DNA of 64,000 nucleotides from Nitrospira sp. (lineage in GTDB: Bacteria > Nitrospirota > Nitrospiria > Nitrospirales > Nitrospiraceae): positions 62,001 through 126,000 of the forward strand of contig JAFEBI010000023.1 of assembly GCA_018242725.1 (NCBI GenBank). Reading direction: 5' to 3'. Below, piece by piece: positions 9,584-42,589 of the stretch. Below the pieces are notes generated by a model that was not told the origin of the DNA, ran no database searches, and worked only from the letters and a program-made list of their open reading frames with translations. The position numbers were made by a program, and so were the translations under genes. Positions within the stretch are counted from its first letter, which is position 1. Each line of letters begins with the position of its first letter.

Positions 9584-11143
9584 TCACCGTTTCCCATCAT
9601 ATCCCCGCTCTTTCCACCTCTCGAGCAATTGAATGCGCTTCTTGAGCTGTTCGACCGTTGCTTGATCGACCCGGCTTCCCGTGCGGGCGATCAGTTCCGC
9701 ATTCAGACGGCGATGATCGATGCCGCTGGTTCTGGACACAGCGCTGACAAGCAAACGATGAAGATCTCGCAGGTCTTGTTTCTGTTCATAGAGTGAGACG
9801 GTCGGTTCTGGAATGACAGCCGTATCACCTTCCGCTCGCGTCTCCTCTTCTCCGATCAGGCTATCCATCCGAGCCACGGCCATCAAGGGAACGTACTCAT
9901 TCGTCGAGACCGTCACCCGCCCAAAGAGATCCCGCTGCCCTGCCGGCATGATCTCTTCCAACACATGATCGCGCTCCGCCTTGATCTGCTTGGCGTAGTG
10001 CACCAAGACAGGATCTTTCGGCAGATAGAGCCACGCCCGTTGCGGCTTGGGCAGCCCCTCCTGCATTCGAACGAACCGGCCCACGACTTGACGGAAATAC
10101 ATTTCCGTGATCACATTCGTGCCATACACCCCGACACGAAGCCTTGGGATGTCGACACCTTCACTAACCATGTTGACCGCTACCAGCCATTGTTGCTTCT
10201 TATGCGTGGCAAACTCTTCAATGGTATGCGAGGCAGCCGGATCATCCGACACCGCCACCTCTGCCTTCGTCCCGGTCACGCGGGCGACCAGTTCTGCCAC
10301 CCAGCGCGCATGGTCCTGATCCATACAGACAATCAGTCCACCGGCATCCGGTTGCTCTTCCTTCCGAAGGCGTGTCAATTGGGCATGGGCATCGGTGATG
10401 ACGGGGCCAAGCCAGGTGTCTTGCAGCAGCGCCGTTTTCAACCGTTCACGTTGTCGATTGAACTTTAACCCATCCTGGAACGTCGCCTGATGTTCACGGC
10501 CGTCGGACAGCCAGGTCAGTTCACCTTCATAACTCGGAAAGACGATCGGGCGACAGACATTGTCGCGAATCGCTTCGGTATACCCATAGGCAAAATCGGC
10601 CCGGCTTTCGTCATGCTCATATCGAATGAACGGGATCGGATTGTTATCCGACCGGAACGGCGTACCGGACAAAATCAATCGAAAGATTGCCGGGTCAAAC
10701 GCGGAACGGAGCGCCTTCCCCCAGTTCTTCCCGTCACCGGCATGATGTAACTCATCAAAGATGAGTAGGGTTTTCTTGCTCTTGCTGACCCGCTGGAAGA
10801 TCTCTGGAGCCAAACAAACTTGTTGGTAGGTGACCACCGCACCATGGTAATCGGAAGCTTCCGACGGCTGATCGTTGGTCAGAGTCGGATCGAGCTGCAG
10901 CCCGATCTTCCCCGCAGCCTCCGACCACTGTGTCCGTAGGTGGTTGGTCGGACAGACGACCAGCACCCGGACCGCCGCCTGCTTGGCCATAAACTCATGC
11001 GCGACGCGGAGGGCAAAGCGCGTCTTGCCGGCCGCTGGTGTGGCCATCGCCAGAAAGTCTTTCGATTGATGGGCACAGACAGCAGACAGCGCTCGTCGCT
11101 GCCAGTCACGAAGGGGCACGGTCCAGGCAGGTAATTGCTTCAT
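9584..11143 (-). CDS. DEAD/DEAH-box SF2 helicase next to topoisomerase VI
   Basis: 519-residue SF2 helicase resembling the restriction-subunit/ERCC3-like group. Visible motifs are LRDWQRRAL (Q-like), TPAAGKTRFAL (motif I), VVCPTNHLRTQW (Ia), IFDELHHAGD (motif II, DELH), ILSGTPFR (III), VNMVSEGVDIP (V) and FRQVVGRFVRM (VI). There is no nuclease or methylase partner, so it is not a complete restriction system. It lies 34 nt downstream of topoisomerase VI subunit A on the same strand and is probably co-transcribed with top6B-top6A. This context suggests a role in remodelling DNA at topoisomerase sites or in repair, which is inference only. Confidence 0.85.
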   Translation of the reverse strand: MKQLPAWTVPLRDWQRRALSAVCAHQSKDFLAMATPAAGKTRFALRVAHEFMAKQAAVRVLVVCPTNHLRTQWSEAAGKIGLQLDPTLTNDQPSEASDYHGAVVTYQQVCLAPEIFQRVSKSKKTLLIFDELHHAGDGKNWGKALRSAFDPAIFRLILSGTPFRSDNNPIPFIRYEHDESRADFAYGYTEAIRDNVCRPIVFPSYEGELTWLSDGREHQATFQDGLKFNRQRERLKTALLQDTWLGPVITDAHAQLTRLRKEEQPDAGGLIVCMDQDHARWVAELVARVTGTKAEVAVSDDPAASHTIEEFATHKKQQWLVAVNMVSEGVDIPRLRVGVYGTNVITEMYFRQVVGRFVRMQEGLPKPQRAWLYLPKDPVLVHYAKQIKAERDHVLEEIMPAGQRDLFGRVTVSTNEYVPLMAVARMDSLIGEEETRAEGDTAVIPEPTVSLYEQKQDLRDLHRLLVSAVSRTSGIDHRRLNAELIARTGSRVDQATVEQLKKRIQLLERWKERGYDGKR

Positions 11144-11177: not shown

Positions 11178-12281
11178 CTAGTCCAACCAATCTCGTTCCT
11201 GAAGCTTCTTCGGCAGATATTTCTTGGTCAGGTACTGGAAATCTTTGTTGGCCAACGCATCGAGCTCATACTTCAATCCACTGGCCAGCATGCGCTTGAT
11301 CTCCGCTTGCCAGGCCGGCTTCTTGAACCACTGGTAGTTCAACAATTCCTTCGCGCGGGCTATATCCTTGTCGTTGAGCTTGATGCCGACATTGCGCGGC
11401 AGTTCATAGTTCTCCGGATCGGCACTCGACAGGCCCACGAACTTGGCCTTGGGAATGGCCATCCGTTCGCTCTCGAAGGCCAGATTGATCGAGCCCTGTT
11501 TGACCACGGAATAGATGTAGTATCCCCAAGGGTCGTTATCGACCAGCACATAAACCGGCAGTCGATGTTCTTCGTGCAACCGACAGGCTAAGCGCCGCAC
11601 ACCCCGAGGAGGCTGACCGTTTCCGGTCAGGAGGATGCAATTATAGCGACGCCAGAACTTGTCCTCCGAGAGCCTGTTCCACTGCGTGCCCTTCTCAACG
11701 AGCAACACGAAATCCGCCGTACAGCGCCGAATCTCCAGATACTCCGGCTCGACGATCGAGGGGACGGAGTAACCGCCCTTGCCGAGCTTTGAACAATCGA
11801 CACGGTCACCGTCATCTCCGAAAATCACCGGCCCCACGATGCTGCCTCGATTTTCGGCACTGACATGGAGCTCCTCGCGAAGCGCGGCGAGCGATACCTC
11901 GAGATCCTCAATGACCGGATCCGATTCGTCCTGGGCATCAAAGGTATTCTCGTGGGAATCTTTGATCGTGTGTTTCGTGCGGTAGTAAATTTCTCGAAGC
12001 GACGTCGTGAGATCGGCGCGCTGCAACTCGGAGAGCGCATCCGCGACCAGCACCGTCTGCATGAATCGCTTTGCCATGCCGACGTTGAAGAACGACCGTT
12101 CCTGCTTCTTGTTCCCCATCTCGATGAGGCCCTTCCGTTCGTTGAAGGACACATTCGAGAGGGCACGAATCGGGATCTGAAGCGTTGGATCCTTCGACCG
12201 CTCGGCCGCTTGGATGACGATATCCGCCAGACTGATTAACTTTTTCTCGACCACGGTGGGCTGCTTTGTCTTGGTCGTCAT
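11178..12281 (-). CDS. top6A: DNA topoisomerase VI subunit A (Spo11-like)
   Basis: 367-residue catalytic subunit of the type IIB topoisomerase. The 5Y-CAP domain carries the DNA-cleaving tyrosine in LREIYYRTKH (Y99 or Y100). The TOPRIM domain supplies the metal ligands E196 (FVLLVEKGTQW) and D248/D250 (VLVDNDPWGYY). The enzyme cleaves both strands with a 2-nt overhang and passes another duplex, working with the B subunit as A2B2. The start is 6 nt after the top6B stop, a clear operon. Topoisomerase VI is typical of archaea and plants and occurs only in scattered bacteria. The length and all key residues suggest a working enzyme. Confidence 0.93.
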   Translation of the reverse strand: MTTKTKQPTVVEKKLISLADIVIQAAERSKDPTLQIPIRALSNVSFNERKGLIEMGNKKQERSFFNVGMAKRFMQTVLVADALSELQRADLTTSLREIYYRTKHTIKDSHENTFDAQDESDPVIEDLEVSLAALREELHVSAENRGSIVGPVIFGDDGDRVDCSKLGKGGYSVPSIVEPEYLEIRRCTADFVLLVEKGTQWNRLSEDKFWRRYNCILLTGNGQPPRGVRRLACRLHEEHRLPVYVLVDNDPWGYYIYSVVKQGSINLAFESERMAIPKAKFVGLSSADPENYELPRNVGIKLNDKDIARAKELLNYQWFKKPAWQAEIKRMLASGLKYELDALANKDFQYLTKKYLPKKLQERDWLD

Positions 12282-12287
12282 AATGTC

Positions 12288-14372
12288 CTATTTATGTTTG
12301 CGAGGAGCGGTAGATTTACCTGGCTTGGCTGGCTTTATGTTCGAACCAGACTTGCCCGCAAAGAGCATCGTCTGCTCAGACTTCACGGCTACTTTCCTCG
12401 GCGATTTCTCTGGAGGTCTCGCTTCGACCGCTTGGTTTTTTGAAGTCGGCTCATCGACAGACGGTGCCTCTCCTAGTAAATCGGACGTGGCCTTGGAGAC
12501 CGTTCCTGCTTGATCAGCCTCGACTTGACTGGCCACCGCCGTCTCGCCTTCGATGCCTTCGGCTGTGACGATGATGGAGTGCGGCAGCCCTTCAGGCCCA
12601 GCTCCGGTCTTACCCAAAGCCTGATCAGTTTTCTGGCCGCCGGTGCGGGTGGACGCGATCTTCTGAAGCTGCGCCTTCAATTTTTCTTTTGGTAACTTGC
12701 CTCCCTTGAGCCGATTGCATGCCTCAACGACTTCTTCGATATACAGCTCGAAGATATTGCGGCGACGAAACTCGCTCGCGGCCCGCTCGCGACGACGCAC
12801 GAAGAGGCCGAGCCTCCGGCCACACTCACGAAGCGCCAGCGTGATTTCTTTTTGAATCTCATCGTAGTCGGCGATCGCTTCTTTGGACTCGCTTGTAAAC
12901 GGCACCCACACCGAGGCCATATGCACGAAGATCACCATTGGCCCACCCGGCAAAGCTCCACGCGACTGGGTCAGCCCATAGTTCTTCCACGTCGTACTCA
13001 GTACGGCCTTGAAGGTGGAACAGGCCGATTGCTGATACAACAGGGGCACGCGATTCGCGTACCGAATCACGCGAGCAAGCTCTGAATCCTCCTCCTCGCC
13101 TTCACCCTCGGCTTTCGGCATGGTCGGCTGCTGTGGCTTGTTCTGATCTTGGGGCCTGTTGCCATAGGCCAGTCCGGCCTCGATGATGAAGGGGTTCCCA
13201 CGATAGACGGCCGGCGGTCGGCTGACGGCCGTATAAAACTCACCCTTAATTTGCTTATAGAGTCCTGAAAGAATGGCCTTCTCACCGATCGGTGAAATGC
13301 AATTGGTGGGCGGCGCCATGAGCTTTGTCTCTTGCAGCGTCTTGTAGAGGATTTCAGCCACCGGCCCCTTCAGCTCACGTGGTTTGGCTTCCGGTGATAC
13401 CTTCGCCGCCTTGCAAATCTCCTCGGCGATCTGCGTAGGCACCCGACAAAAATCGCTTTCGAGAAATCCGGCAACTGTGTGGCTCTTCGTATCCTGCAAC
13501 ATCTTGAGCAACATACCGAACTCAATCCCGTAGGGATGCGGCTTGATCTCGCGCGGTTGCGGCGGGAGCTCGTGATAGGTGCGCGCGTACTCTTTCGTCT
13601 CCCCTTCCGGCATATGGTAGATCAGCTTGACGTGGGGATTGGCGATCGAGGTCTGCTCCAGCCACTCATCGACCGATGCGCGCCCCTTCTGGTACTTACC
13701 TTCCACTTCCAACGTAACTTGCGTGCCGCGTGGCTGCTCCCAATCAATCTGCTTATTTTCGTGAACCAACGGCTCATTCTTTTTTGTATCGATCTGGACT
13801 TCGAAAAAATGCGCGGCGGCCTTCGGTCCGATGCGGGAAATAATCTTGACCGGTTTGCCGGTCGTCAGCTGCCCATACATGCCGGCTGCGGAAATTCCGA
13901 TACCCTGTTGCCCTCGGCTCATCCGTAGACGATGGAACTTCGACCCGTAGAGCAGCTTTGCGAAGATCCGAGGAATCTGTTGGCGAACGATGCCGGGGCC
14001 ATTGTCGGTCACCGTCACACGAAATCGGTTCGCTTGGCTCGCTGCAACCGGTTGCCCGTTTGAGACGACCTCAAGCCGGACCGTCACGTCGGGGAGAATT
14101 CCCGCCTCCTCACAGGCATCGAGCGCGTTGTCGACTGCTTCTTTCACGCAGGTCAACAGCGCTTTGCGTGGATTGTCGAAGCCGAGTAGGTGCCGGTTCT
14201 TCGTGAAAAATTCAGAAACGGAAATTTCCCGCTGGCGCGCGCCCATCTCCACCGCAGTAACCCGCTCCGCAGGTTTGGCTGCAGGTTTCCTGGTTACGAC
14301 TGGTTCGGGAGTGGACCGAGAAACGGAAGATTTCGATTCAGTCTCTGCTGCAGATGCTTTCTTAGTGGTCAT
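12288..14372 (-). CDS. top6B: DNA topoisomerase VI subunit B (GHKL ATPase)
   Basis: 694-residue ATPase subunit. The N-terminal GHKL fold shows KEAVDNALDACEEAG (N box, Mg/ATP Asn), VTDNGPGI (G1) and SRGQQGIGISAAGMYGQ (G2 lid). These are followed by the H2TH and transducer regions, including SPIGEKAIL and the switch-lysine region around TQSRGALPGGPMVIFVH. Before it, the N-terminal 40 residues are a Lys/Ala/Pro-rich linker. After about residue 560 there is a roughly 130-residue extension rich in Lys, Ala, Glu and Ser and probably disordered. The gene is the first of the top6B-top6A-helicase set and lies 118 nt downstream of the WD40 gene. Confidence 0.93.
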   Translation of the reverse strand: MTTKKASAAETESKSSVSRSTPEPVVTRKPAAKPAERVTAVEMGARQREISVSEFFTKNRHLLGFDNPRKALLTCVKEAVDNALDACEEAGILPDVTVRLEVVSNGQPVAASQANRFRVTVTDNGPGIVRQQIPRIFAKLLYGSKFHRLRMSRGQQGIGISAAGMYGQLTTGKPVKIISRIGPKAAAHFFEVQIDTKKNEPLVHENKQIDWEQPRGTQVTLEVEGKYQKGRASVDEWLEQTSIANPHVKLIYHMPEGETKEYARTYHELPPQPREIKPHPYGIEFGMLLKMLQDTKSHTVAGFLESDFCRVPTQIAEEICKAAKVSPEAKPRELKGPVAEILYKTLQETKLMAPPTNCISPIGEKAILSGLYKQIKGEFYTAVSRPPAVYRGNPFIIEAGLAYGNRPQDQNKPQQPTMPKAEGEGEEEDSELARVIRYANRVPLLYQQSACSTFKAVLSTTWKNYGLTQSRGALPGGPMVIFVHMASVWVPFTSESKEAIADYDEIQKEITLALRECGRRLGLFVRRRERAASEFRRRNIFELYIEEVVEACNRLKGGKLPKEKLKAQLQKIASTRTGGQKTDQALGKTGAGPEGLPHSIIVTAEGIEGETAVASQVEADQAGTVSKATSDLLGEAPSVDEPTSKNQAVEARPPEKSPRKVAVKSEQTMLFAGKSGSNIKPAKPGKSTAPRKHK

Positions 14373-18690: not shown

Positions 18691-19065
18691 ATGAGCTATT
18701 TGCACACTCGCTCTAACTGGATAGGCCAACTGGTCACAATCTTTACCTGCCTGTCGACTGTCTGGCTATCGACGTCCTGTGACGCAACAGAGCTAGGCAT
18801 CTTAGAACCCACTGCAAAATCCCCCATGCTTCGATTCGCTCCCCAGGAAATTTTGATCAAATTCAAGAGTGGAGTATCACAAGAGCGTATCGCGTCCATC
18901 CTAAGGCATAACCAAATCAAGGTGATTGCGGAAATCCAAAGAGGCCATCTCTACCACGTCAGAGTCTTGGACAATCGATCGGTTGAATCCGCAATCACCC
19001 AATTCACTTCATATCAGGAGATCGAGTATGCAGAGCCCAACTATCGGTACGAAACGGAAAAGTAG
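18691..19065 (+). CDS. stand-alone secreted S8 prodomain (inhibitor-like), copy 1
   Basis: 124-residue exported protein. After a hydrophobic signal (IGQLVTIFTCLSTVWLSTSC) almost the whole mature chain is one prodomain of the fervidolysin/subtilisin type: APQEILIKFKSGVSQERI, a ferredoxin-like middle, and the hallmark end IEYAEPNYRYE. The Cys at the signal end could be a lipidation site, but the -3 residue is not typical. ATG 18691 is chosen because GGAGAG lies just upstream and the second copy starts with the same MSYL. The 3' end overlaps the S8 gene by 38 nt in the +1 frame. Free prodomains can act as chaperones or tight inhibitors; either role here is inference. Confidence 0.75.
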   Translation: MSYLHTRSNWIGQLVTIFTCLSTVWLSTSCDATELGILEPTAKSPMLRFAPQEILIKFKSGVSQERIASILRHNQIKVIAEIQRGHLYHVRVLDNRSVESAITQFTSYQEIEYAEPNYRYETEK

Positions 19066-21373
19066 CATCACGCCAATTACGCTCTGGTGGAGCGGCACCA
19101 TTCTAGTACTGACAGTGTTGGGGGTTGCATTGTCAGCGCTTATGCCTGGAGACCGCTTGGTTTATGCGAAGCAGAAACAGACAGCCGACGGAATGACTCA
19201 GCGCTCATCGGATCTGCGCCACCATCCAAGCAAGTATGTACGGGGAGAGGTGCTCGTCAAATTCAAGGATGAGGCATCCTCATTAGGAATCAAGTCCATC
19301 AATGTAGATGGTGAGAACCATGAAATTAAAGCGTTCTCCGTGAATAGTAGAGCCATCCACCGATATAAGTTGGATGGGACCTTATCGGTCGATGAAGCCG
19401 TTTCGAAGTACCGAAATAATCCAGCCATTGAGTATGCTGAACCGAACTATCTTTACTGGACAAAAACCATTCCCAGCGACGCCAAATTTGAGACGCTATG
19501 GGGTCTCCATAACACCGGTCAAACCGTCGACGGAACAGCCGGCACACCGGATGCCGACATTGATGCGCCGGAAGCCTGGGACATCAGCACGGGAAGCTCA
19601 AACGTTGTCATCGCCGTTATTGACTCGGGTATCGCCTACGATCATCCGGATCTGGCACCTAATATTTGGACAAACCCTAGAGAGATTGCGGGAGATGGTA
19701 TTGACAATGATGGGAATGGATTAGTCGACGATGTACATGGATGGGATTTTCTCATGAATGATAATGACCCGATGGACCCCATCGATCTCAATCCTGGCGG
19801 TAACCCAGGACATGGTACTCATGTCGCAGGAATCATCGCAGGAGCTGGAAACAACGGAAGCGGAATCACCGGTGTTATGTGGACAGCCAAACTGATGGCG
19901 CTGAAAGCCGGAGGAGTGAACGGATCTCTGTCCACAGCCGCCATTGTCAGTGCGATTCACTATGGCATCGCTAATGGCGCACGCGTGATCAACCTGAGCT
20001 TTACCGCAGCCGAATGTAGTCAGGCCTTGTACGATGCGGTGAGTGCCGCCAATGCAGCCGGCGTGCTTCTTGTCGCCGCAGCAGGAAATGAAGAAACGGA
20101 TAATGACAACGCACCTAGTTTTCCCGCAAACTTTGGTTCCCCCTCAGTATGTGATGGACAACAGAAGGCAGCACTGCCAAACGTAATCGCGGTGGCCGCC
20201 ACAGACGCGAACGACCGATTGATCAGCCTCTCCAATTTCGGATCCACAACAGTCCACGTGGCTGCGCCAGGAGTCAGGATCAACAGCACAAAGCCCACAT
20301 CAAACATTACGAGTGTGCTTCGGCACAACTTCGATTCAAACCCAATCGCACTCGGGTATACGTTCGGAGGAATTAATAACACCTGGGGATTCACTAATTC
20401 CGCATCATTCAGCCCAACAAACAGTCTCACCGACAGTCCAAGCGGCAACTACCTGAATGGCACCGATTCCTTTGCAGCCGGACCAGTGTTCACAACTCAA
20501 GGACGACGGGGATGCCGCCTTGACAGTCGCATTCGCCTGCAAACCGAGCAAGACATTGACGGAGTTCTAACAGAAGTATCACGAGACAGCGGAACTAACT
20601 GGGAGCCAATCCGTACAATCACAGGAAATACCAACGACCAATTTGAGCCGTTTACCCTGGGAGACATCGCGGATGGTATGGCCAATTCTCAGTTTCGATT
20701 TCGATTCGAATCGGATGATCGCCAGGTCTTCGACGGTGTCTATTTAGACGATGTCCGTGTCGCCTGCGTTGCGGGTCAGCCTTCGGAGGCAACGGACTAT
20801 CAGTTTCTGCTTGGCACTTCGATGGCTGCTCCGCATGTCACAGGACTTGCGGGTCTTCTACTCTCGGTTAACTCTAACCTGACCGTATCCGAACTCAGAA
20901 ATGCAATCCTCAACACAGTTGATCGAAAACCGTCCTTGGTTGGAAAGGTTTCGACCGGTGGGCGAATCAATGCCCGAGCCGCGTTGGCCAGCGTCGTGAC
21001 AACATTTTCCGTTACCGTCAACAAATCGGGTGCCGGCGCCGGCACAATTACGTCAAGCGCTGCCGGGATCGCCTGCGGAGCGACATGCACCGGCCAATTT
21101 CTCCAAGGTAGCACCGTAAGTCTTACCGCAGCCCCCAATCCTCAATCTGTCTTCACCGGATGGAGTGGAGATTGTGCAGGAACCGGTTCCTGCTCGCTTA
21201 CCAATAACGCAACTGTCACCGCAACCTTCGACATTGCACCAACCCCTCCGTCTCCTATCGAAAATAGCGGAGGAGGCTGTACTCTTGCCTCTGGTGCAAC
21301 TGGAGACCTGTTGTTACCTACCATACTACTCCTATCTCTGACAGCCTTATTGCGAGGGAGAAAACACCGATGA
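19028..21373 (+). CDS. S8 subtilisin-like peptidase with C-terminal sorting tail, copy 1
   Basis: 781-residue secreted serine peptidase. Order: membrane-crossing signal, prodomain (about 70-142, ending IEYAEPNYLY), catalytic domain with D199 (AVIDSGIAYDHPDL), H262 (GHGTHVAG), oxyanion N354 (AAAGNEE) and S598 (GTSMAAPH). A beta-sandwich insert resembling MAM/immune-inhibitor-A modules (about 424-583) sits between Asn and Ser. After the catalytic domain comes an InlB-like repeat domain (about 663-735, WSGDCAGTGSC). The tail is GGGC, GDLLLP, a hydrophobic stretch and RGRKHR, resembling JDVT-CTERM. ATG 19028 has AGGAG 7 nt upstream, inside the prodomain gene. Its TGA overlaps the next ATG. The prodomain and catalytic core are intact. 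Confidence 0.9.
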   Translation: MQSPTIGTKRKSSITPITLWWSGTILVLTVLGVALSALMPGDRLVYAKQKQTADGMTQRSSDLRHHPSKYVRGEVLVKFKDEASSLGIKSINVDGENHEIKAFSVNSRAIHRYKLDGTLSVDEAVSKYRNNPAIEYAEPNYLYWTKTIPSDAKFETLWGLHNTGQTVDGTAGTPDADIDAPEAWDISTGSSNVVIAVIDSGIAYDHPDLAPNIWTNPREIAGDGIDNDGNGLVDDVHGWDFLMNDNDPMDPIDLNPGGNPGHGTHVAGIIAGAGNNGSGITGVMWTAKLMALKAGGVNGSLSTAAIVSAIHYGIANGARVINLSFTAAECSQALYDAVSAANAAGVLLVAAAGNEETDNDNAPSFPANFGSPSVCDGQQKAALPNVIAVAATDANDRLISLSNFGSTTVHVAAPGVRINSTKPTSNITSVLRHNFDSNPIALGYTFGGINNTWGFTNSASFSPTNSLTDSPSGNYLNGTDSFAAGPVFTTQGRRGCRLDSRIRLQTEQDIDGVLTEVSRDSGTNWEPIRTITGNTNDQFEPFTLGDIADGMANSQFRFRFESDDRQVFDGVYLDDVRVACVAGQPSEATDYQFLLGTSMAAPHVTGLAGLLLSVNSNLTVSELRNAILNTVDRKPSLVGKVSTGGRINARAALASVVTTFSVTVNKSGAGAGTITSSAAGIACGATCTGQFLQGSTVSLTAAPNPQSVFTGWSGDCAGTGSCSLTNNATVTATFDIAPTPPSPIENSGGGCTLASGATGDLLLPTILLLSLTALLRGRKHR

Positions 21374-22018
21374 GGGGGAGTAGGGATACGTCCTCACAAT
21401 GGCAGTTGCACCCCAAACATCTAGCTGAAGCGAAGGCTGTTTCCATTAATGGACTTCCCATGACAAGCCACTCTACACAAATCCTGGCATCACTAGGACT
21501 TCACTACCATCGTTCCTTCCATCGGAATTCTGTATTTCTCTTGGCCCTTGGCCCGACACTATGGATGGCCATGGTAGGATTCGCGGCGTTTCAACCACTA
21601 ACTTGGCATGCCATATGGTCACCGGTTTTTCTATCCGTTGCCCTCTGGCAACCGATGGTCGAAAAACTGTTGTTCCGCAGTATCATCCAAGGGCATTTGA
21701 TGCAAGCCCCTGTGGGGGCGGAAGACATGGGTTGGCCTCTCCATGTCCAATTTCGTGGTGTCTCTGCTGTTCGTATTGGCCCATCTGGTTAGCCATTCCA
21801 TCTCATGGTCTTTGCTCGTGTTTGCTTCTTCTCTCTGTTTCGGCTTCGTACGAGATCGCTTTGGATCCATCTATCCCGCCATTGCGCTCCATGCCTTCTA
21901 TAACACCGGCTACTTCCTTCTCGTCGGCGGAGCCAGCCCTTCCCAGTTCTCGTTAAGGACCTCACTGTATGACTCTCCGAGGATACCCGATCAGATACGC
22001 CGTCCAGGAAATGCGTAG
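21370..22018 (+). pseudogene. broken CPBP intramembrane protease, copy 1
   Basis: This follows S8 copy 1 with an ATGA overlap. Upstream of the break it reads LALGPTLWMAMVGF and VEKLLFRSIIQG; the EExxxR motif has become E-K. The frame then shifts, and the remainder (MSNFVVSLLFVLAHLV, FGFVRDRFGS, ALHAFYN) is read one frame over and keeps the second and third CPBP motifs. Copy 2 has one C fewer in the C run at 21707-21710. Removing one C restores a continuous protein collinear with the intact gene at 42.0 kb. A single-base sequencing error could explain the shift but not the Glu to Lys change, so loss of function is likely. Confidence 0.8.
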
Positions 22019-22616: not shown

Positions 22617-23006
22617 ATGTCTTACTTACCCCATCTCTCTCATCGCATAGCACAATTTGTCACAATCACGACGTGTGTGTCGGTTGTGTGGCTTTCCACA
22701 TCCTGCCACGCCACTGATCATCATGTGACACCGTCTCACGCCTCGGATCTCCCTATGCCCCTCCCTCTCCCTCGATTCGCACCAAAGGAAGTGCTGGTCA
22801 AGTTCAAAGACGGAGTTTCATCCGAGCGAATTGCGGCGATCCTGAAAGACAACCAGACCGATGTGATCGCTGAACTCCAGCGGGGACGTCTTTATCACAT
22901 CCGTATTTTGGAAGATCGGTCGGTTGAACTTGCGATCGCTCAGCTCACTTCATATCGAGAGATTGAGTATGCAGAGCCCAATTATCGGTACGAGACGCAG
23001 AAGTAA
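22617..23006 (+). CDS. stand-alone secreted S8 prodomain (inhibitor-like), copy 2
   Basis: 129-residue paralogue of the protein at 18691. It has the same MSYL start, a hydrophobic signal ending WLSTSC, then a His/Pro-rich linker and one prodomain (APKEVLVKFKDGVSSERI to IEYAEPNYRYE). The Shine-Dalgarno AAGG sits very close to the ATG (2 nt), so the in-frame GTG at 22587 is an alternative start. The last 38 nt overlap the S8 gene in the +1 frame, exactly as in copy 1. Preservation of an intact frame in both copies argues that the free prodomain is used. Confidence 0.75.
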   Translation: MSYLPHLSHRIAQFVTITTCVSVVWLSTSCHATDHHVTPSHASDLPMPLPLPRFAPKEVLVKFKDGVSSERIAAILKDNQTDVIAELQRGRLYHIRILEDRSVELAIAQLTSYREIEYAEPNYRYETQK

Positions 23007-25317
23007 CATGACAAGAATTGTGTTCTATGGGATCGGAGCTATCGTCAGCGTTACAACAGTCGTCGTCACATTGTCGGGGCTCATACCCGGTGATCGCTTG
23101 GTCTACGCGAAGCAGAAACAAACATCCGGTGGCAAAACGGCGTTATCAGGGGTCGCGCGTGGGCCTGCGCACTATGTTCCTGGAGAGATACTCGTCAAGT
23201 TCAGAGATGAGGCGTCTTTATCGGGAATCGCCTCGTTGAATGTCGATACGGGAGCTAAAGAACTCAAACCAGTTACGGTGCAGGCTGGAGTAATTCACCA
23301 GTACAAGTTGGACGGTGCTTTATCGGTGGACGAAGCCGTCTTGAAGTACCAAAATAATCCTGCCGTTCAGTACGCCGAGCCCAACTACCTCTACCAGCTG
23401 CAAGCTATTCCCAACGATACGCGGTTCGGAACATTATGGGGCCTCCACAACACCGGTCAAACCGTAGATGGAACGGCAGGGAAAGCGGATGCCGACATTG
23501 ATGCCCCTGAAGCCTGGGAGATCAGCACAGGAAGCCCAAACGTGATTATTGCCGTTATTGACTCGGGTATCGCTTACGATCACCCTGATCTCACACCCAA
23601 TATCTGGACGAACCCGGGAGAGATTGCGGGGGACGGCGTTGATAATGATGGGAATGGATTGGTCGACGATGTGCATGGATGGGATTTCCTCATGAACGAT
23701 CGCGACCCGATGGACCCTGTCGATCTCAATCCTGGAGGTAACCCGGGGCATGGCACCCATGTCGCCGGAACCATCGCGGGAGCAGGAAACAATGGAACTG
23801 GAATCACGGGGGTCATGTGGACAGCCAAACTGATGGCGCTGAAAGCCGGAGGTGTGAATCGATCCCTATCCACCACTGCGCTTGTCAGCGCGATCCACTA
23901 TGCCATTGCCAAAGGTGCGCGTGTCATCAATGCCAGCTTTGCTGGATCTGCGTGTAGCTTGGCCTTCTATGATGCCGTGAGTGCCGCAAATGATGCGGGG
24001 ATCCTGATTATTGCAGCGGCAGGCAACGGTGGAGATGATGGGATCGGCGACGATAACAATAGCACCCCAAGCTTTCCTTCAAATTTTAGCGCTCCCTCGG
24101 TATGTAATGGACAACAAAAAGCCGCACTGACAAACGTGATCGCGGTCGCCGCAACGGACCAAACTGATCAATTGGCGACCTTTTCGAATTTCGGGTCTAC
24201 GACCGTTCAAGTAGCCGCCCCGGGAGTCAGAATCAACAGCACCATCCCCACCTCAAACGTCACGACGGTTCTCCTGCATCACTTTGATTCCAACCCCATC
24301 GAACTCGGGTATGTCTTTGGAGGAACCAGGAGTACCTGGGGTTTCACCGATTCCACATCATCCAGCCAACCAAACAGTCTGACAGACAGTCCGACCGGAA
24401 ACTATCAGAACAATACCGATTCCTTCGCGATGGGACCGGTATTCTCAACCGTGGGACAGCGGGGTTGCCGGTTAGACAGTCGCGTTCGCTACCAAACCGA
24501 GCTTGATATCGACGAAGTTCTTGCAGATGTATCAAAGAACAACGGAACCAGTTGGCAAGTCAGTCAGGGAATTTCTGGAGACAGCAACGGCCGATTTCAT
24601 CCCATTACCTGGGGAGACATCGCAGATGGCTCGGCTGGTTCACAGTTCCGGTTCCGATTTGTATCGGATGAGAGTCTGACCTTCGATGGCGCATATTTGG
24701 ACGACGTCCGCGTCGCCTGCGTGGCAGATGCCCCATCGGGAACGACGGACTACCAGTTTTTTCACGGCACTTCGATGGCCACTCCGCATGTGGCAGGACT
24801 TGCTGGGTTATTACTCTCGGCCAATCCTCATCTCTCGGTCACCGAACTCAGGAGCGCAATCTTGAGTACCGTGGATCGGAACGCGTCCCTGAATGGAAAA
24901 GTGTCGAGCGGCGGACGTATCAATGCCCGCGCCGCGTTGTCCAGCGTGGTGGCTAGTTCCACCATCATCGTCAACAAATCCGGTGCCGGCACCGGTACGG
25001 TGACGTCCGATCCTGCTGGGCTTAACTGTCGAGCAACCTGCAACGGAAAGTTCCCTCTGGGTAGCACAGTCCATCTCTCTGCAGCACCCGATCCAGGATC
25101 GACATTTGCTGGGTGGAGCGGAGATTGCTCAGGAACGGGGCCCTGCTCGATTTCCCCGAATGCAACGGTCACTGCCACCTTCAGCATCGCCCCACCACCC
25201 ACCAATAGTGGCGGCGGAGGCTGCACCGTTGCCCCTGGCACCACTGGAGACATGGTCCTGCCCACCATGTTCCTCATATCTCTAGCTGCCTTGTTGCGGA
25301 AGGCATGCCGTCGATGA
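22969..25317 (+). CDS. S8 subtilisin-like peptidase with C-terminal sorting tail, copy 2
   Basis: 782 residues with the same layout as the first copy: signal, prodomain, catalytic Asp (AVIDSGIAYDHPDL), His (GHGTHVAG), Asn (AAAGNGG), beta-sandwich insert, Ser (GTSMATPH), InlB-like domain (WSGDCSGTGPC), then GGGGC, GDMVLP, a hydrophobic stretch and RKACRR. Start choice is uncertain. ATG 22969 matches copy 1, but that stretch is constrained by the overlapping prodomain gene. ATG 23008, one base after the prodomain stop, would also give a good signal peptide (MTRIVFYGIGAIVSV). The cognate CPBP gene has been cut to a fragment by a deletion starting 3 nt after this stop. Confidence 0.88.
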   Translation: MQSPIIGTRRRSNMTRIVFYGIGAIVSVTTVVVTLSGLIPGDRLVYAKQKQTSGGKTALSGVARGPAHYVPGEILVKFRDEASLSGIASLNVDTGAKELKPVTVQAGVIHQYKLDGALSVDEAVLKYQNNPAVQYAEPNYLYQLQAIPNDTRFGTLWGLHNTGQTVDGTAGKADADIDAPEAWEISTGSPNVIIAVIDSGIAYDHPDLTPNIWTNPGEIAGDGVDNDGNGLVDDVHGWDFLMNDRDPMDPVDLNPGGNPGHGTHVAGTIAGAGNNGTGITGVMWTAKLMALKAGGVNRSLSTTALVSAIHYAIAKGARVINASFAGSACSLAFYDAVSAANDAGILIIAAAGNGGDDGIGDDNNSTPSFPSNFSAPSVCNGQQKAALTNVIAVAATDQTDQLATFSNFGSTTVQVAAPGVRINSTIPTSNVTTVLLHHFDSNPIELGYVFGGTRSTWGFTDSTSSSQPNSLTDSPTGNYQNNTDSFAMGPVFSTVGQRGCRLDSRVRYQTELDIDEVLADVSKNNGTSWQVSQGISGDSNGRFHPITWGDIADGSAGSQFRFRFVSDESLTFDGAYLDDVRVACVADAPSGTTDYQFFHGTSMATPHVAGLAGLLLSANPHLSVTELRSAILSTVDRNASLNGKVSSGGRINARAALSSVVASSTIIVNKSGAGTGTVTSDPAGLNCRATCNGKFPLGSTVHLSAAPDPGSTFAGWSGDCSGTGPCSISPNATVTATFSIAPPPTNSGGGGCTVAPGTTGDMVLPTMFLISLAALLRKACRR

Positions 25318-25673
25318 AATTTGGCATGCCATATGGTCACCAGTTTTTCTATCCGTTGCCTTCTGCCAACCGATGTCAAGAATTGTTGTTCCGCGGTATC
25401 ATCCAAAAGCATTTGATATAAACCCTGTGGGAACGGAAGATATGGTCTGGCCTCTCAATGTCCAACTTCGTCGTGCCTCTAATATTCATGTCGGCGCATC
25501 TCGTCACCACCCATTTCACCCCATGGTCCTTGCTCGTGTTTGCTCCTTCTTTCTGTTTCGGCTTCGTACGAGATCGCTTTGGATCCGTGTATCCCGCCAT
25601 TGCGCTCCATGTCTTCTATAATGCTGGCTACGTTCTCCTCACCGGTGGGGTCACTTCTCTCAACTTTCGCTAA
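25318..25673 (+). pseudogene. truncated CPBP intramembrane protease, copy 2
   Basis: Compared with copy 1, about 227 nt are missing between the S8 stop and the TTGGCATGCC block, removing the start and first membrane segment. What remains reads QELLFRGIIQKHLI, then an in-frame TAA, then SMSNFVVPLIFMSAHLV, FGFVRDRFGS and ALHVFYN. The first motif is Q-E instead of E-E. Missing start, motif damage and an internal stop leave no doubt that it is dead. It is most similar to the copy at 21370. Confidence 0.88.
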
Positions 25674-36889: not shown

Positions 36890-36895
36890 TCATAG
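36755..36895 (+). CDS. possible 46-residue protein
   Basis: Small ORF with a good Shine-Dalgarno (GGGAG, 9 nt before ATG). The protein begins MRVLGLNENGRPLARPT and ends QLFPFKEGNS. It contains both stem-loops of this intergenic region, which may mean that it is chance or that the hairpins lie in its mRNA. Its end overlaps the stop of the convergent propeller gene. No family is recognised. Confidence 0.3.
   Translation: MRVLGLNENGRPLARPTVTEPADLASEQSCKPVQEHQLFPFKEGNS
36868..36889 (-). terminator. stem-loop after the propeller gene
   Basis: Perfect 8-bp arms GTTCCCTT (36868-36875) and AAGGGAAC (36882-36889) with a 6-nt loop, directly after the TGA of the minus-strand propeller gene. There is no clear U tract, so it may be a weak terminator or 3'-end stabiliser. 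Confidence 0.5.
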
Positions 36896-38026
36896 TGGAA
36901 CACGGGATAGAAACGTCAACGCCCCGGTGATCGTATCACTGATGCTATAGGCTGAGATATCACTCGAAGCGCGATTCACCGAATAGACAAATTTCCCCGT
37001 CGGATCGACCGCGATACCTTCTGGGTCGCCGCTTGCGGAAAACTTTGGCCCCGCTGTCAACAAGCCGGTTGCCGCGTCGACCGTATAAGTCGAGATAGTG
37101 TTCGCTTGGCCATCAGCTACATACGCAAGCTTCCCAGACGGATCGACGGTCACACCCTCCGGGCCAATACCCGTCGAAAATGGCGAACCCAACAATGATG
37201 CCAGTCCCCCTGTTGAATTAATGCTATACGCCGAGACAGTATTCGATTCCTCATTCGTGACATAGAGGAATGATCCGGTTGGGTGTATCGCGATCGCATT
37301 CGGACCTTTAGCAGTTGTTAAAGGCAGGTTTGGCACCGTCACATCCTCCAATTTTCCCGTTGTCGCGTTAATCCCATAAGTTGAGATAGTATCTGCTCTA
37401 AAATTCGCGACATAGGCCCGTGTTCCCGTGCTATTGATGGCGACGGCATCAGGACCTCCACCTGTAAGCTTGTGCTCCACCAATTCCAACAACCCGTTTG
37501 CGACTATCTTATAGACCGAGACAGTATCCGAATTAAAATTCGTGACATACACGAAGTTGCGTGTCCAATCCACGGTGATAGAACCAGGTCCATCCCCTGC
37601 TGAAACTGGAGAACCCAGCGATGCCAGCCCCCCGTCCGTCCCAATCGTATAGGCCGATACTGTATTTGAACTATAATTTGTCACATATGCCAACTTCCGT
37701 GTGCTGTTCGCCGCAATGAACGTCGGCTGAAATCCCGCGCAGATTTCCCCTCTCCTTGTCAAAACTCCCGAGCTCTCGACCTTATACCAAACGACCCTAT
37801 GCCCAGGAGTATGCACCGCATAGGCAAAGCCCCCAGTGATGGCCGGCGGTCCCTGGGGAACAGGAAAGGCTGTAACCGAGGAAGTAGGGGCGCAAGGATT
37901 TCCGGAAGCATTATTATTACTAGTGCTATTGCTCGCGGAACATCCGGCTCCGATTGCCACCAAAAGGCTAACGGACAGCCCTGACGCCAGTAAACGAGAA
38001 CGTTGCTGCGCAATAGATAAATACAT
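36890..38026 (-). CDS. YVTN/lactonase-like beta-propeller lipoprotein
   Basis: 378 residues. The signal ends in a lipobox-like IGAGC. The mature protein has about seven repeats of roughly 45 residues of the form KLAYVTNYSSNTVSAYTIG, GGLASLGSPVSAGDGPGSI and FLYVTNEESNTVSAYSI. This matches YVTN/PgL-type (6-phosphogluconolactonase-like) seven-bladed propellers. In lipoproteins of this kind catalytic activity is usually unproven, so a binding role is as likely. The low-complexity Ser/Asn linker after the Cys is typical of surface or periplasmic tethering. Confidence 0.82.
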   Translation of the reverse strand: MYLSIAQQRSRLLASGLSVSLLVAIGAGCSASNSTSNNNASGNPCAPTSSVTAFPVPQGPPAITGGFAYAVHTPGHRVVWYKVESSGVLTRRGEICAGFQPTFIAANSTRKLAYVTNYSSNTVSAYTIGTDGGLASLGSPVSAGDGPGSITVDWTRNFVYVTNFNSDTVSVYKIVANGLLELVEHKLTGGGPDAVAINSTGTRAYVANFRADTISTYGINATTGKLEDVTVPNLPLTTAKGPNAIAIHPTGSFLYVTNEESNTVSAYSINSTGGLASLLGSPFSTGIGPEGVTVDPSGKLAYVADGQANTISTYTVDAATGLLTAGPKFSASGDPEGIAVDPTGKFVYSVNRASSDISAYSISDTITGALTFLSRVPL

Positions 38027-39575: not shown

Positions 39576-42008
39576 ATGAAAAAGAAAGAGATTCTTGTTT
39601 GGATTGGAGCTGGGCTCTGTGCAGCATTCGCATGCTTCATCAATCCCACACCTGCTCTCGTAGAAGGCGCCACGTTGCCGCCAGGGTTCTCCGAGTCCGT
39701 TGTCTTCTCAGGGTTATCGAATCCGACCGTGGTCCGCTTTTCGACGGATGGGCGGGTCTTCGTTGCAGAAAAAAGTGGCCTCATCAAGGTTTTCTCCAGT
39801 CTCTCTGCCACCTCGCCCACGGTGTTTCATGATTTACGGAAAAACGTGCATAATTTTTGGGACCGAGGGTTGCTCGGCTTGGAACTTCACCCCAACTTCC
39901 CCACGGTGCCGGATGTCTATGTTCTCTACACTTATGACAAAGACCCCAATAATGCCCAGTTCCCTCGGTGGGGCAGCCCCAGTAATAACTACACCTCTGA
40001 AGGGTGCCCGGATCCTCCGGGTGCAAATACTGACGGGTGCGTGGTAAGCGGCCGACTATCACGATTGAAAGCCACCTCCGGTAGCAACGTATCAGACGGC
40101 TCCGAAGTCGTGTTGATTGAAGGGTGGGATATGCAGTATCCCAGCCACTCAGTGGGCACCGTGCAGTTCGGTCCTGACGGGGCGCTCTACGCCTCAGGTG
40201 GTGAGGGGGCCGGTTTTGCGTTTGCTGATTATGGACAGAAAGGGATACCAGTCAATCCGTTAGGCGATCCGCCGTCTGGCATCGGGGGCACGCAGACCCC
40301 ACCAACGGCAGAAGGCGGAGCCACGCGAGCACAGAGTCTACGTCGAGTGAGTGGTCCGGCATTGTTAAGTGGCACGATCATTCGGGTGGATCCAGTCACT
40401 GGCGAGGGGCTCTCCGACAATCCCCTCCATGATAGCAGTGACGCCAACGCTCGCCGCATCGTGGGGTATGGGTTCCGCAATCCCTTTCGGTTTACTTTTC
40501 GGCCAGGCACCACCGAACTGTGGGTCGGGGACGTGGGATGGAATAGTTGGGAGGAAATCAACCGACTCCCCAATCCCTTGGCATCCTCAGTGCGCAACTT
40601 TGGCTGGCCTTGCTATGAAGGCCTTAACCGACAGAACGGCTACGATTCGCTGAACTTGAATATCTGTGAGAGCCTGTACGCCCAGGCTGGGGGACACACC
40701 CCTCCTTACTTTACTTATGAGCATGGGGCGCCAGTCGTGGCAGGAGAAACCTGTCCCAGCAACGGTAGTTCGTCTGTCACAGGACTGGCTTTCGGCCGAG
40801 GGAGTACCTTTCCCGCCGCGTACCAGGGCGCGCTGTTCTTCGCCGATTATTCCCGCGGTTGTATTTGGACCATGTTCGCCGGAGCGAATGGCTTGCCCGA
40901 TCCAGCGACCCGCACCCCGTTTGTGGCTGGAGCTGCTAGCCCGGTTTACCTGCAGATCGGACCAGGAGGTGACCTGTTCTATGTGGACTTGGTAGGCGGG
41001 ACCATCCGACGAATTCACTTCACTAGCGGCAATCAGCCTCCGCAGGCAATCATGACGCCTACACCCACGTCTGGGCCAGCCCCTCTGACCGTGACCTTCT
41101 CATCGGCTGGCTCCTCGGATCCGGACGGCGATCCAATTACCTATGGTTGGAACTTTGGGGATGGCGGGACCTCAACTGATGCAAATCCAAGTCATACTTA
41201 TACAAGAAAAGGACCATTTACTGCGGTGCTGACCGTCACTGACTCAAAAGGTGCATCCGGCACAGCCTCAGCCGTCATTTCACCGGGCAATAGCAAACCC
41301 ACTGCAGTTATTGACACGCCTGCTTCGACGACCCAGTGGAAGGTCGGCCAACGGATTACATTTACTGGCCACGCCACCGATCCGGATGATGGCACGCTCC
41401 CGCCTTCGGCGTTTAAGTGGGAGATTATCCTTCATCATTGTCCATCAGACTGTCATACCCATCCTCTGGAGAGTTTCGACAACGTTACCACCGAATCGTT
41501 TCCAGCTCCCGATCACGACTACCCGTCACATCTCGAGATCAAACTGACCGTGACGGATACGGATGGGCTCATAGATACCAAAAGTGTACTTCTGGATCCA
41601 CAAACTGTCGCACTGAACTTTAAATCCACGCCGTCAGGGTTACAGCTTGTTGTAGGAAGCAGCAAATCCCCCACACCGTTTACAAGAACCGTCATCCAGG
41701 GGTCCGGTAATTCTATCAGTGCTGTCTCCCCTCAGGCTCTGGGTGCTACAAACTATAAGTTTGTGTCTTGGTCTGATGGAGGCAACCAATCGCATGACAT
41801 CAACGCAACTGCTGCTGCGACCTATACGGCCACTTACGAGGTCACAACCGATCCCATTCCTTCCCCCCCGCCACCTAGCGATAATAGCGGAGGCGGCGGT
41901 TGTACGCTCAGTAGATCAGGAACAGTTGATGCCTTACTACCATTACTGTTCCTTGCTGTCGTTGGCCTGTTGCTCATGAGAGGGAAACGGCGTGTGAATA
42001 AACGCTGA
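39576..42008 (+). CDS. glucose/sorbosone dehydrogenase-PKD protein with C-terminal sorting tail
   Basis: 810-residue secreted protein. Signal peptide (ILVWIGAGLCAAFACF), then a six-bladed GSDH/PQQ-type propeller (about 28-490): LPPGFSESVVFSGLSNPT, RGLLGLELHPNF, GYGFRNPFRFTF and LWVGDVGWNSWEEINRL. A PKD domain follows (PTSGPAPLTVTFSSAGSSDP, WNFGDGGTSTDANPSHTYT), then further Ig-like segments. The tail is GGGGC, VDALLP, a hydrophobic stretch and RGKRRVNKR, matching the S8 proteins. Start ATG 39576 has GGGAG 5 nt upstream; ATG 39477, also with a purine-rich leader, would add 33 residues. It may oxidise sugars with PQQ, but the cofactor is not proven. Confidence 0.85.
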   Translation: MKKKEILVWIGAGLCAAFACFINPTPALVEGATLPPGFSESVVFSGLSNPTVVRFSTDGRVFVAEKSGLIKVFSSLSATSPTVFHDLRKNVHNFWDRGLLGLELHPNFPTVPDVYVLYTYDKDPNNAQFPRWGSPSNNYTSEGCPDPPGANTDGCVVSGRLSRLKATSGSNVSDGSEVVLIEGWDMQYPSHSVGTVQFGPDGALYASGGEGAGFAFADYGQKGIPVNPLGDPPSGIGGTQTPPTAEGGATRAQSLRRVSGPALLSGTIIRVDPVTGEGLSDNPLHDSSDANARRIVGYGFRNPFRFTFRPGTTELWVGDVGWNSWEEINRLPNPLASSVRNFGWPCYEGLNRQNGYDSLNLNICESLYAQAGGHTPPYFTYEHGAPVVAGETCPSNGSSSVTGLAFGRGSTFPAAYQGALFFADYSRGCIWTMFAGANGLPDPATRTPFVAGAASPVYLQIGPGGDLFYVDLVGGTIRRIHFTSGNQPPQAIMTPTPTSGPAPLTVTFSSAGSSDPDGDPITYGWNFGDGGTSTDANPSHTYTRKGPFTAVLTVTDSKGASGTASAVISPGNSKPTAVIDTPASTTQWKVGQRITFTGHATDPDDGTLPPSAFKWEIILHHCPSDCHTHPLESFDNVTTESFPAPDHDYPSHLEIKLTVTDTDGLIDTKSVLLDPQTVALNFKSTPSGLQLVVGSSKSPTPFTRTVIQGSGNSISAVSPQALGATNYKFVSWSDGGNQSHDINATAAATYTATYEVTTDPIPSPPPPSDNSGGGGCTLSRSGTVDALLPLLFLAVVGLLLMRGKRRVNKR

Positions 42009-42037
42009 TCGCATAGGAACCTGTACACATTGCCCAT

Positions 42038-42589
42038 GTGAGGGTTATGAATCGTCCTGTTGTGCCGGCGACAACTGCGGCGAAGGTCGATTGGCATCAC
42101 ACACTTGGTCGATTAGGGCTTTGCTGGCCGCGCGCATTCTATGCCAGCAAAGCCTTTCTTTTTTGTGCAGGGGCTGCTCCGTTGGTCTGGGCCATCATGG
42201 CATGGGGCGTTCCGGTTCATTCAATGTCCCTGGCCCAAGTATGGTCGCTGGGCTTTGCCTCGGTGGTTCTATGGTATCCGCTATGGGAAGAGCTGCTGTT
42301 TAGAGGATTGTTGCAGGGCGAACTCATCGCGCGTGGTTGGACACGATGCTGGGTCTATGGTTTGAGCGGAGCAAATATTGCGGTTTCTCTCCTGTTTACA
42401 GTCTTTCATTTCTGGAGCCATAGCCCAATCTGGGCCGCCCTGGTATTCTTCCCCTCGCTGATATTTGGCTATCTTCGCGATCGGTTCGACTCCACGATGC
42501 CCTCGATTTTGATGCACATGTGGTACAACGGCGGGTATTTTTTCTTCATCGATTCATCGAAGCTTCCCACACAGTTCGACCTCCAGTGA
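42038..42589 (+). CDS. intact CPBP glutamic intramembrane protease (sorting-type)
   Basis: 183-residue membrane protease. All three CPBP motifs are present: EELLFRG (EExxxR), FTVFH (FxxxH) and HMWYN (HxxxN), within at least four hydrophobic segments. It lies 29 nt after the dehydrogenase stop, and its degraded relatives lie directly after the two S8 genes. Paired CPBP proteases of this size are known for C-terminal sorting signals (JDVT-CTERM type), where they are thought to cut the tail in the membrane. GTG 42038 or ATG 42047 could be the start. It is the only working copy visible, so it may process all three tailed proteins. Confidence 0.85.
   Translation: MRVMNRPVVPATTAAKVDWHHTLGRLGLCWPRAFYASKAFLFCAGAAPLVWAIMAWGVPVHSMSLAQVWSLGFASVVLWYPLWEELLFRGLLQGELIARGWTRCWVYGLSGANIAVSLLFTVFHFWSHSPIWAALVFFPSLIFGYLRDRFDSTMPSILMHMWYNGGYFFFIDSSKLPTQFDLQ

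Follow-up and report, generated by a model that had tools for sequence, protein, structure and literature searches.

Rhombosortase of Vibrio cholerae is a rhomboid serine protease whose partner, the GlyGly-CTERM tail, is carried by secreted proteases that are exported by the type II secretion system (T2SS). In Myxococcus xanthus, the CPBP protease MrtX has 35 clients with MYXO-CTERM tails; these leave by Sec, are anchored by their C-termini, are cleaved in the membrane in a Cys-dependent manner and are displayed at the cell surface in a T2SS-dependent manner, and lipidation of the Cys has been proposed; MrtX also works in laboratory E. coli (PMC11980579). The JDVT-CTERM tail and its protease MrtJ, as the description by Haft (2024) is relayed in PMC11980579, occur sporadically in beta- and gammaproteobacteria, with MrtJ next to a single JDVT-CTERM protein.

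The window, the whole 64,000-nt stretch of DNA that was analysed, belongs to a Nitrospira genome of 4.0 Mb in 34 contigs (G000), and contains a tailed client gene followed directly by an intact mrtJ. Client 1 (39576-42008, + strand) is an exported protein with GSDH (Pfam, 78.6 bits) and PKD (PKD_4, 76.8 bits) domains, GSDH being a glucose/sorbosone dehydrogenase-like beta-propeller. Its ORF is open from 39477 and its stop codon ends at 42008; ATG 39576 is the likely start, giving a protein that begins MKKKEILVWIGAGLCAAF and has the C-terminus SDNSGGGGCTLSRSGTVDALLPLLFLAVVGLLLMRGKRRVNKR. The His of the segment HSVGTVQFGPDG is aligned with the His of a GSDH-family protein of known structure. The tail, SGGGGCTLSRSGTVDALLPLLFLAVVGLLLMRGKRRVNKR, is encoded by 41886-41990 (+ strand), with the codon of the invariant Cys at 41901-41903. 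Against the JDVT-CTERM model NF033191, which has a curated cut-off of 27 bits, it scores 28.5 bits in a genome search, 29.7 bits alone and 23.4 bits, below the cut-off, within the whole protein. Upstream of the GSDH gene, 36890-38026 (- strand) encodes a beta-propeller-like secreted protein whose start has a lipobox-like GAGCSAS, and G007 has a similar gene in the same place (L074:1019-2170). Elsewhere in the window, two adjoining ORFs (11178-14372, - strand) resemble, by eye only, subunits A and B of DNA topoisomerase VI, which are unusual in a bacterium, and lie beside a helicase-like ORF (9584-11143).

The downstream gene (42047-42589, + strand), assigned below to lineage B, encodes a predicted CPBP glutamic-type intramembrane protease that scores 100.3 bits with the MrtJ model NF033192 (curated cut-off 75 bits) and 56.2 bits with the Pfam Rce1-like model, and falls well under the cut-offs of the other myxosortase models. 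EELLFRG, FTVFH and HMWYN are all present in the ORF at 42038-42589, which provides the full set of CPBP catalytic motifs, EExxxR, H and HxxxN (EELLFR, H124 and HMWYN; E84-E85, R89, H124, H160 and N164 when numbered from 42038), and alignments of relatives have these residues invariant or almost so. A structure model (pLDDT 83.6) had no match at E≤0.001 in a fold search of the PDB, and PDB sequence searches with MrtJ or an MrtJ profile gave nothing useful, so the CPBP/Rce1 fold assignment is based on the Pfam and NCBIfam models. The pair of tailed secreted protein and CPBP protease that the sequence-only reading had proposed here is real, as tail and motifs are confirmed and both models are exceeded, the tail model in the genome search. 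The 29-nt gap that it placed between the two genes holds if GTG 42038 is the start, but becomes 38 nt with ATG 42047, which appears the likelier start because GAGG lies just upstream and the position aligns with the start of the G035 gene. The same genome encodes a further CPBP-domain protein of ~500 aa (C32:174391-174645, L119), which scores ~42 bits with the MrtJ model, under its cut-off; this paralogue is found in most of the 79 Nitrospira genomes compared, irrespective of tails, and so provides an internal negative control.

Two S8 peptidases in the window were also said to carry the same tail, and this was borne out. Both have a fervidolysin-type prodomain, the catalytic motifs DSG, HGTH and GTSMA, an uncertain start codon and a JDVT-CTERM tail. 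Client 2 (18926-21373, + strand; Peptidase_S8, 174 bits) has its tail at 21266-21364 (+ strand) and client 3 (22924-25317, + strand; Peptidase_S8, 184 bits) at 25207-25299 (+ strand), with NF033191 scores of 33.7 and 34.7 bits, respectively, in the genome search and 27.4 and 28.1 bits within the whole proteins. Directly 3′ of each S8 gene is a decayed mrtJ, overlooked in the sequence-only reading and recognized here by tblastn and DNA alignment, for the first copy with intact lineage-A genes. The first remnant (~21481-21955, + strand), found by tblastn in pieces, lacks 6 nt of the first helix, has Lys in place of a catalytic Glu and carries a +1 frameshift; a search for a lesion in common with its counterpart in G075 found none. 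In the second (~25319-25673, + strand), the 5′ part is gone, 2 nt are deleted at the EExxxR motif and a TAA interrupts the frame. With a dead mrtJ behind each S8 gene, the window once had three pairs of client and protease, of which the three clients and a single intact protease are left.

A search of the complete genome found exactly three tails above the NF033191 cut-off, those of the window (28.5, 33.7 and 34.7 bits), and no fourth; the next match, at 14.4 bits, is at a level also reached in control genomes, and at E≤0.01 there was no tail match in any of 14 control genomes. Assignment to the JDVT-CTERM kind is thus upheld by all three tails in the genome search and by a protease above the cut-off of the named partner of JDVT-CTERM. 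Tails that match no sorting model, or tails that are ordinary anchors in a genome with no other pairing of a tail with a CPBP gene, had been named as results that would speak against the proposal, and neither was found. The earlier proposal can be refined to exactly three clients above cut-off, each formerly with a protease of its own.

We regard it as probable that this is a JDVT-CTERM/MrtJ sorting system in which one working protease has three clients, with the S8 clients served in trans. The clients would leave the cytoplasm by Sec and stay in the inner membrane by means of their tails, in which GGGC ... D..LLP is followed by a hydrophobic span and then by basic residues at the end. As in the model for MrtX and MYXO-CTERM, the invariant Cys would then be modified, probably by lipidation, MrtJ would cut the span away beyond the Cys, and the T2SS would take the cut protein to the cell surface. 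The protease of the window would serve the adjacent GSDH client and also the two S8 clients, which have lost their own lineage-A proteases to decay. A T2SS operon is present in the genome, with GspE, GspF, GspG and GspK above cut-off and GspL- and GspM-like proteins below it, and a GspD-like secretin, just below cut-off, is encoded apart from the operon. T2SS-type secretins were considered as a discriminating marker and set aside because they are present in 77 of the 79 genomes.

The fate of local mrtJ genes across the genus provides a natural complementation experiment. For 40 S8 clients, scored from the DNA around tails and mrtJ genes, the local mrtJ is broken, truncated or absent in 11 (G000 twice, G021, G031a, G035, G051b, G052, G054, G055, G056 and G075a), and in each such genome there is another intact mrtJ; the damaged copy in G052 lacks only the first helix and keeps its catalytic motifs, and estimated contamination of G035 is 6%. 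Where the genome offers no other intact mrtJ, all 22 S8 clients have kept the local copy, as have 7 despite a spare (Fisher p = 1.4e-5, kinship ignored). The losses, small in number and in part concentrated in genomes that are related, correspond to five changes on the S8 tree, four of them forced by strongly supported branches. Together with G021, G054 and G056, described below, these losses are evolutionary evidence for MrtJ working in trans and on clients of another lineage. They also give indirect support to the earlier suggestion of a single sorting machine for three or more clients, two S8 proteases and an enzyme among them, in that the S8-linked mrtJ copies are dead and losses in the genus occur only with an intact spare.

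Three MrtJ lineages are resolved in the tree: A, associated with the S8 clients (support 97), B, which includes the MrtJ of the window (99), and C, associated with a longer S8 type (99). MrtJ-B is ~45% identical to lineage A and lies outside it rather than nested within it. The GSDH client was detected in four genomes only (G000, G035, G052 and G055). G021, G054 and G056 have no tail other than an A-type S8 tail and no MrtJ other than an intact B. Directly upstream of MrtJ-B in these three genomes, in the place occupied elsewhere by the GSDH client, is an ORF for a ~500-aa protein that has no Pfam match and no tail (L116:4523-6190; similar in L114 and L107). MrtJ-B is under purifying selection in most comparisons, with dN/dS of 0.33 (0.19-0.56) for G054-G056 and 0.18 (0.11-0.28) for G035-G075, and 0.59 for G021-G054 with an interval that extends past 1 (0.34-1.11); part of this signal may be older than the loss of the GSDH client.

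That MrtJ serves the adjacent GSDH client alone, and that the S8 tails in G000 are now plain membrane anchors or leftovers, is consistent with the death of both S8-linked mrtJ copies and with tail dN/dS values near or above 1 in some pairs from the decoupled clade, values that, over 35 codons, are too noisy to be used alone. Against this, scores do not differ between orphan and paired tails (39.8 vs 39.9 bits), and the orphans retain GGGC, the Asp/Glu and the Pro, six codons that would persist under neutrality in the decoupled clade of four genomes with a roughly estimated probability of ~0.001. In addition, an intact mrtJ is present in every tail-bearing genome, whether or not there is a GSDH client; we consider this alternative unlikely. 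Two separately evolved cassettes, S8 with MrtJ-A and GSDH with MrtJ-B, might have met in one Nitrospira lineage, where MrtJ-B then displaced the resident MrtJ-A, an account that we consider about as likely as not and put forward tentatively.

Tail and protease occur together throughout the genus. Among the 79 Nitrospira genomes, all MAGs and many of them fragmented, an MrtJ above cut-off is present in all 33 with tails and in 2 of the 46 without (Fisher's exact p = 3e-20, kinship of genomes ignored). Both exceptional copies are damaged, by an internal stop in G005 and in G065 by the absence of the first helix, with the client also missing. G064 has a near-identical mrtJ (L095, compared with L094 in G065) that is intact and accompanied by an S8 client; in G065, client and first helix are gone as if through one deletion. 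In a draw of 396 genomes from the phylum, MrtJ was likewise present in all 30 with a tail above cut-off. A search for tail-less S8 orthologues in genomes without mrtJ gave two candidates (G028 and G034), both cut off at contig ends. MrtJ relatives near similar tails are found also in Sulfurovum (Campylobacterota) and Rhodocyclaceae; JDVT-like tails (L136:2924-4846, L137:2951-4858 and L131:3390-4946) lie by MrtJ relatives in Sulfurovum and are also carried, in a Salinisphaerales MAG, by a protein that weakly resembles reprolysin. The tails are short and hydrophobic with basic residues after the span, as in many ordinary C-terminal membrane anchors, and the neighbouring CPBP gene could then be a coincidence. 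The distribution of MrtJ between genomes with and without tails speaks against such a coincidence, the CPBP paralogue common to most genomes has no link to tails, and the Cys and GGG are present in every true tail collected from the genus, in which the Pro is also invariant, making this explanation very improbable. That errors in assembly or sequencing account for the broken mrtJ copies, and three private pairs are really present, is scarcely credible: single-base indels are frequent artefacts in draft genomes, but the lesions of the first copy are of three different kinds, a lost catalytic Glu among them, the second combines a missing 5′ part, a 2-nt deletion and an in-frame stop, and relatives have other lesions, as in G075 compared with G000, or in some cases lack the local copy altogether.

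If one MrtJ has several clients, and a diverged MrtJ can adopt those of another lineage, then the tail would be a general code, and one genus would suffice to trace how a two-gene cassette becomes a sorting system that is shared. Were the two cassettes indeed to have met as proposed, proteases that have diverged widely would read the JDVT tail, making it a portable code, and cassettes that began as private could fuse into a system of one protease and many clients, as in the myxobacteria. For Nitrospira, an ecologically important nitrifier, the proposal predicts subtilases and a GSDH-type protein anchored at the surface, and the natural swaps in G021, G054 and G056 offer ready substrate-protease pairs for studies of specificity and for finding the Cys-modifying enzyme.

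Like rhombosortase and GlyGly-CTERM, the system proposed here combines an intramembrane protease, a C-terminal tail on secreted proteases and export by a T2SS, but the protease is a CPBP glutamic protease rather than a rhomboid serine protease; GlyGly-CTERM was not among the matches listed for the tail in the model search. With MrtX and MYXO-CTERM it shares a CPBP protease, an invariant tail Cys, a T2SS and, as far as we infer, one protease for many clients, and differs in having few clients that are encoded in cassettes. Identity with that system was rejected, as the tail scores 9.3 bits against TIGR03901 (cut-off 20) and the protease 27 bits against NF040593 (cut-off 180). The closest system is JDVT-CTERM/MrtJ, both curated models of which (NF033191 and NF033192) are matched above cut-off. 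The two-gene neighbourhood, with mrtJ directly after the client gene, is seen in the GSDH pair, and the S8 clients adjoin decayed copies. Whereas that system is described with a single client per genome, there are three in G000, from two unrelated enzyme classes, with one intact and two decayed proteases, and in Nitrospirota; because the models are matched, the three-client genome is treated here as a variation of JDVT-CTERM/MrtJ. A limited literature search, which did not extend to the original 2024 description, found no report of JDVT-CTERM in Nitrospira, although sequences of this kind from Nitrospira may be known to the NCBIfam curators. Publications or predictions already cover the family and the mechanism expected of it, with Cys modification, intramembrane cleavage and T2SS export; what is new is the arrangement of several clients in Nitrospirota, together with the lineage swap and the private proteases that have died.
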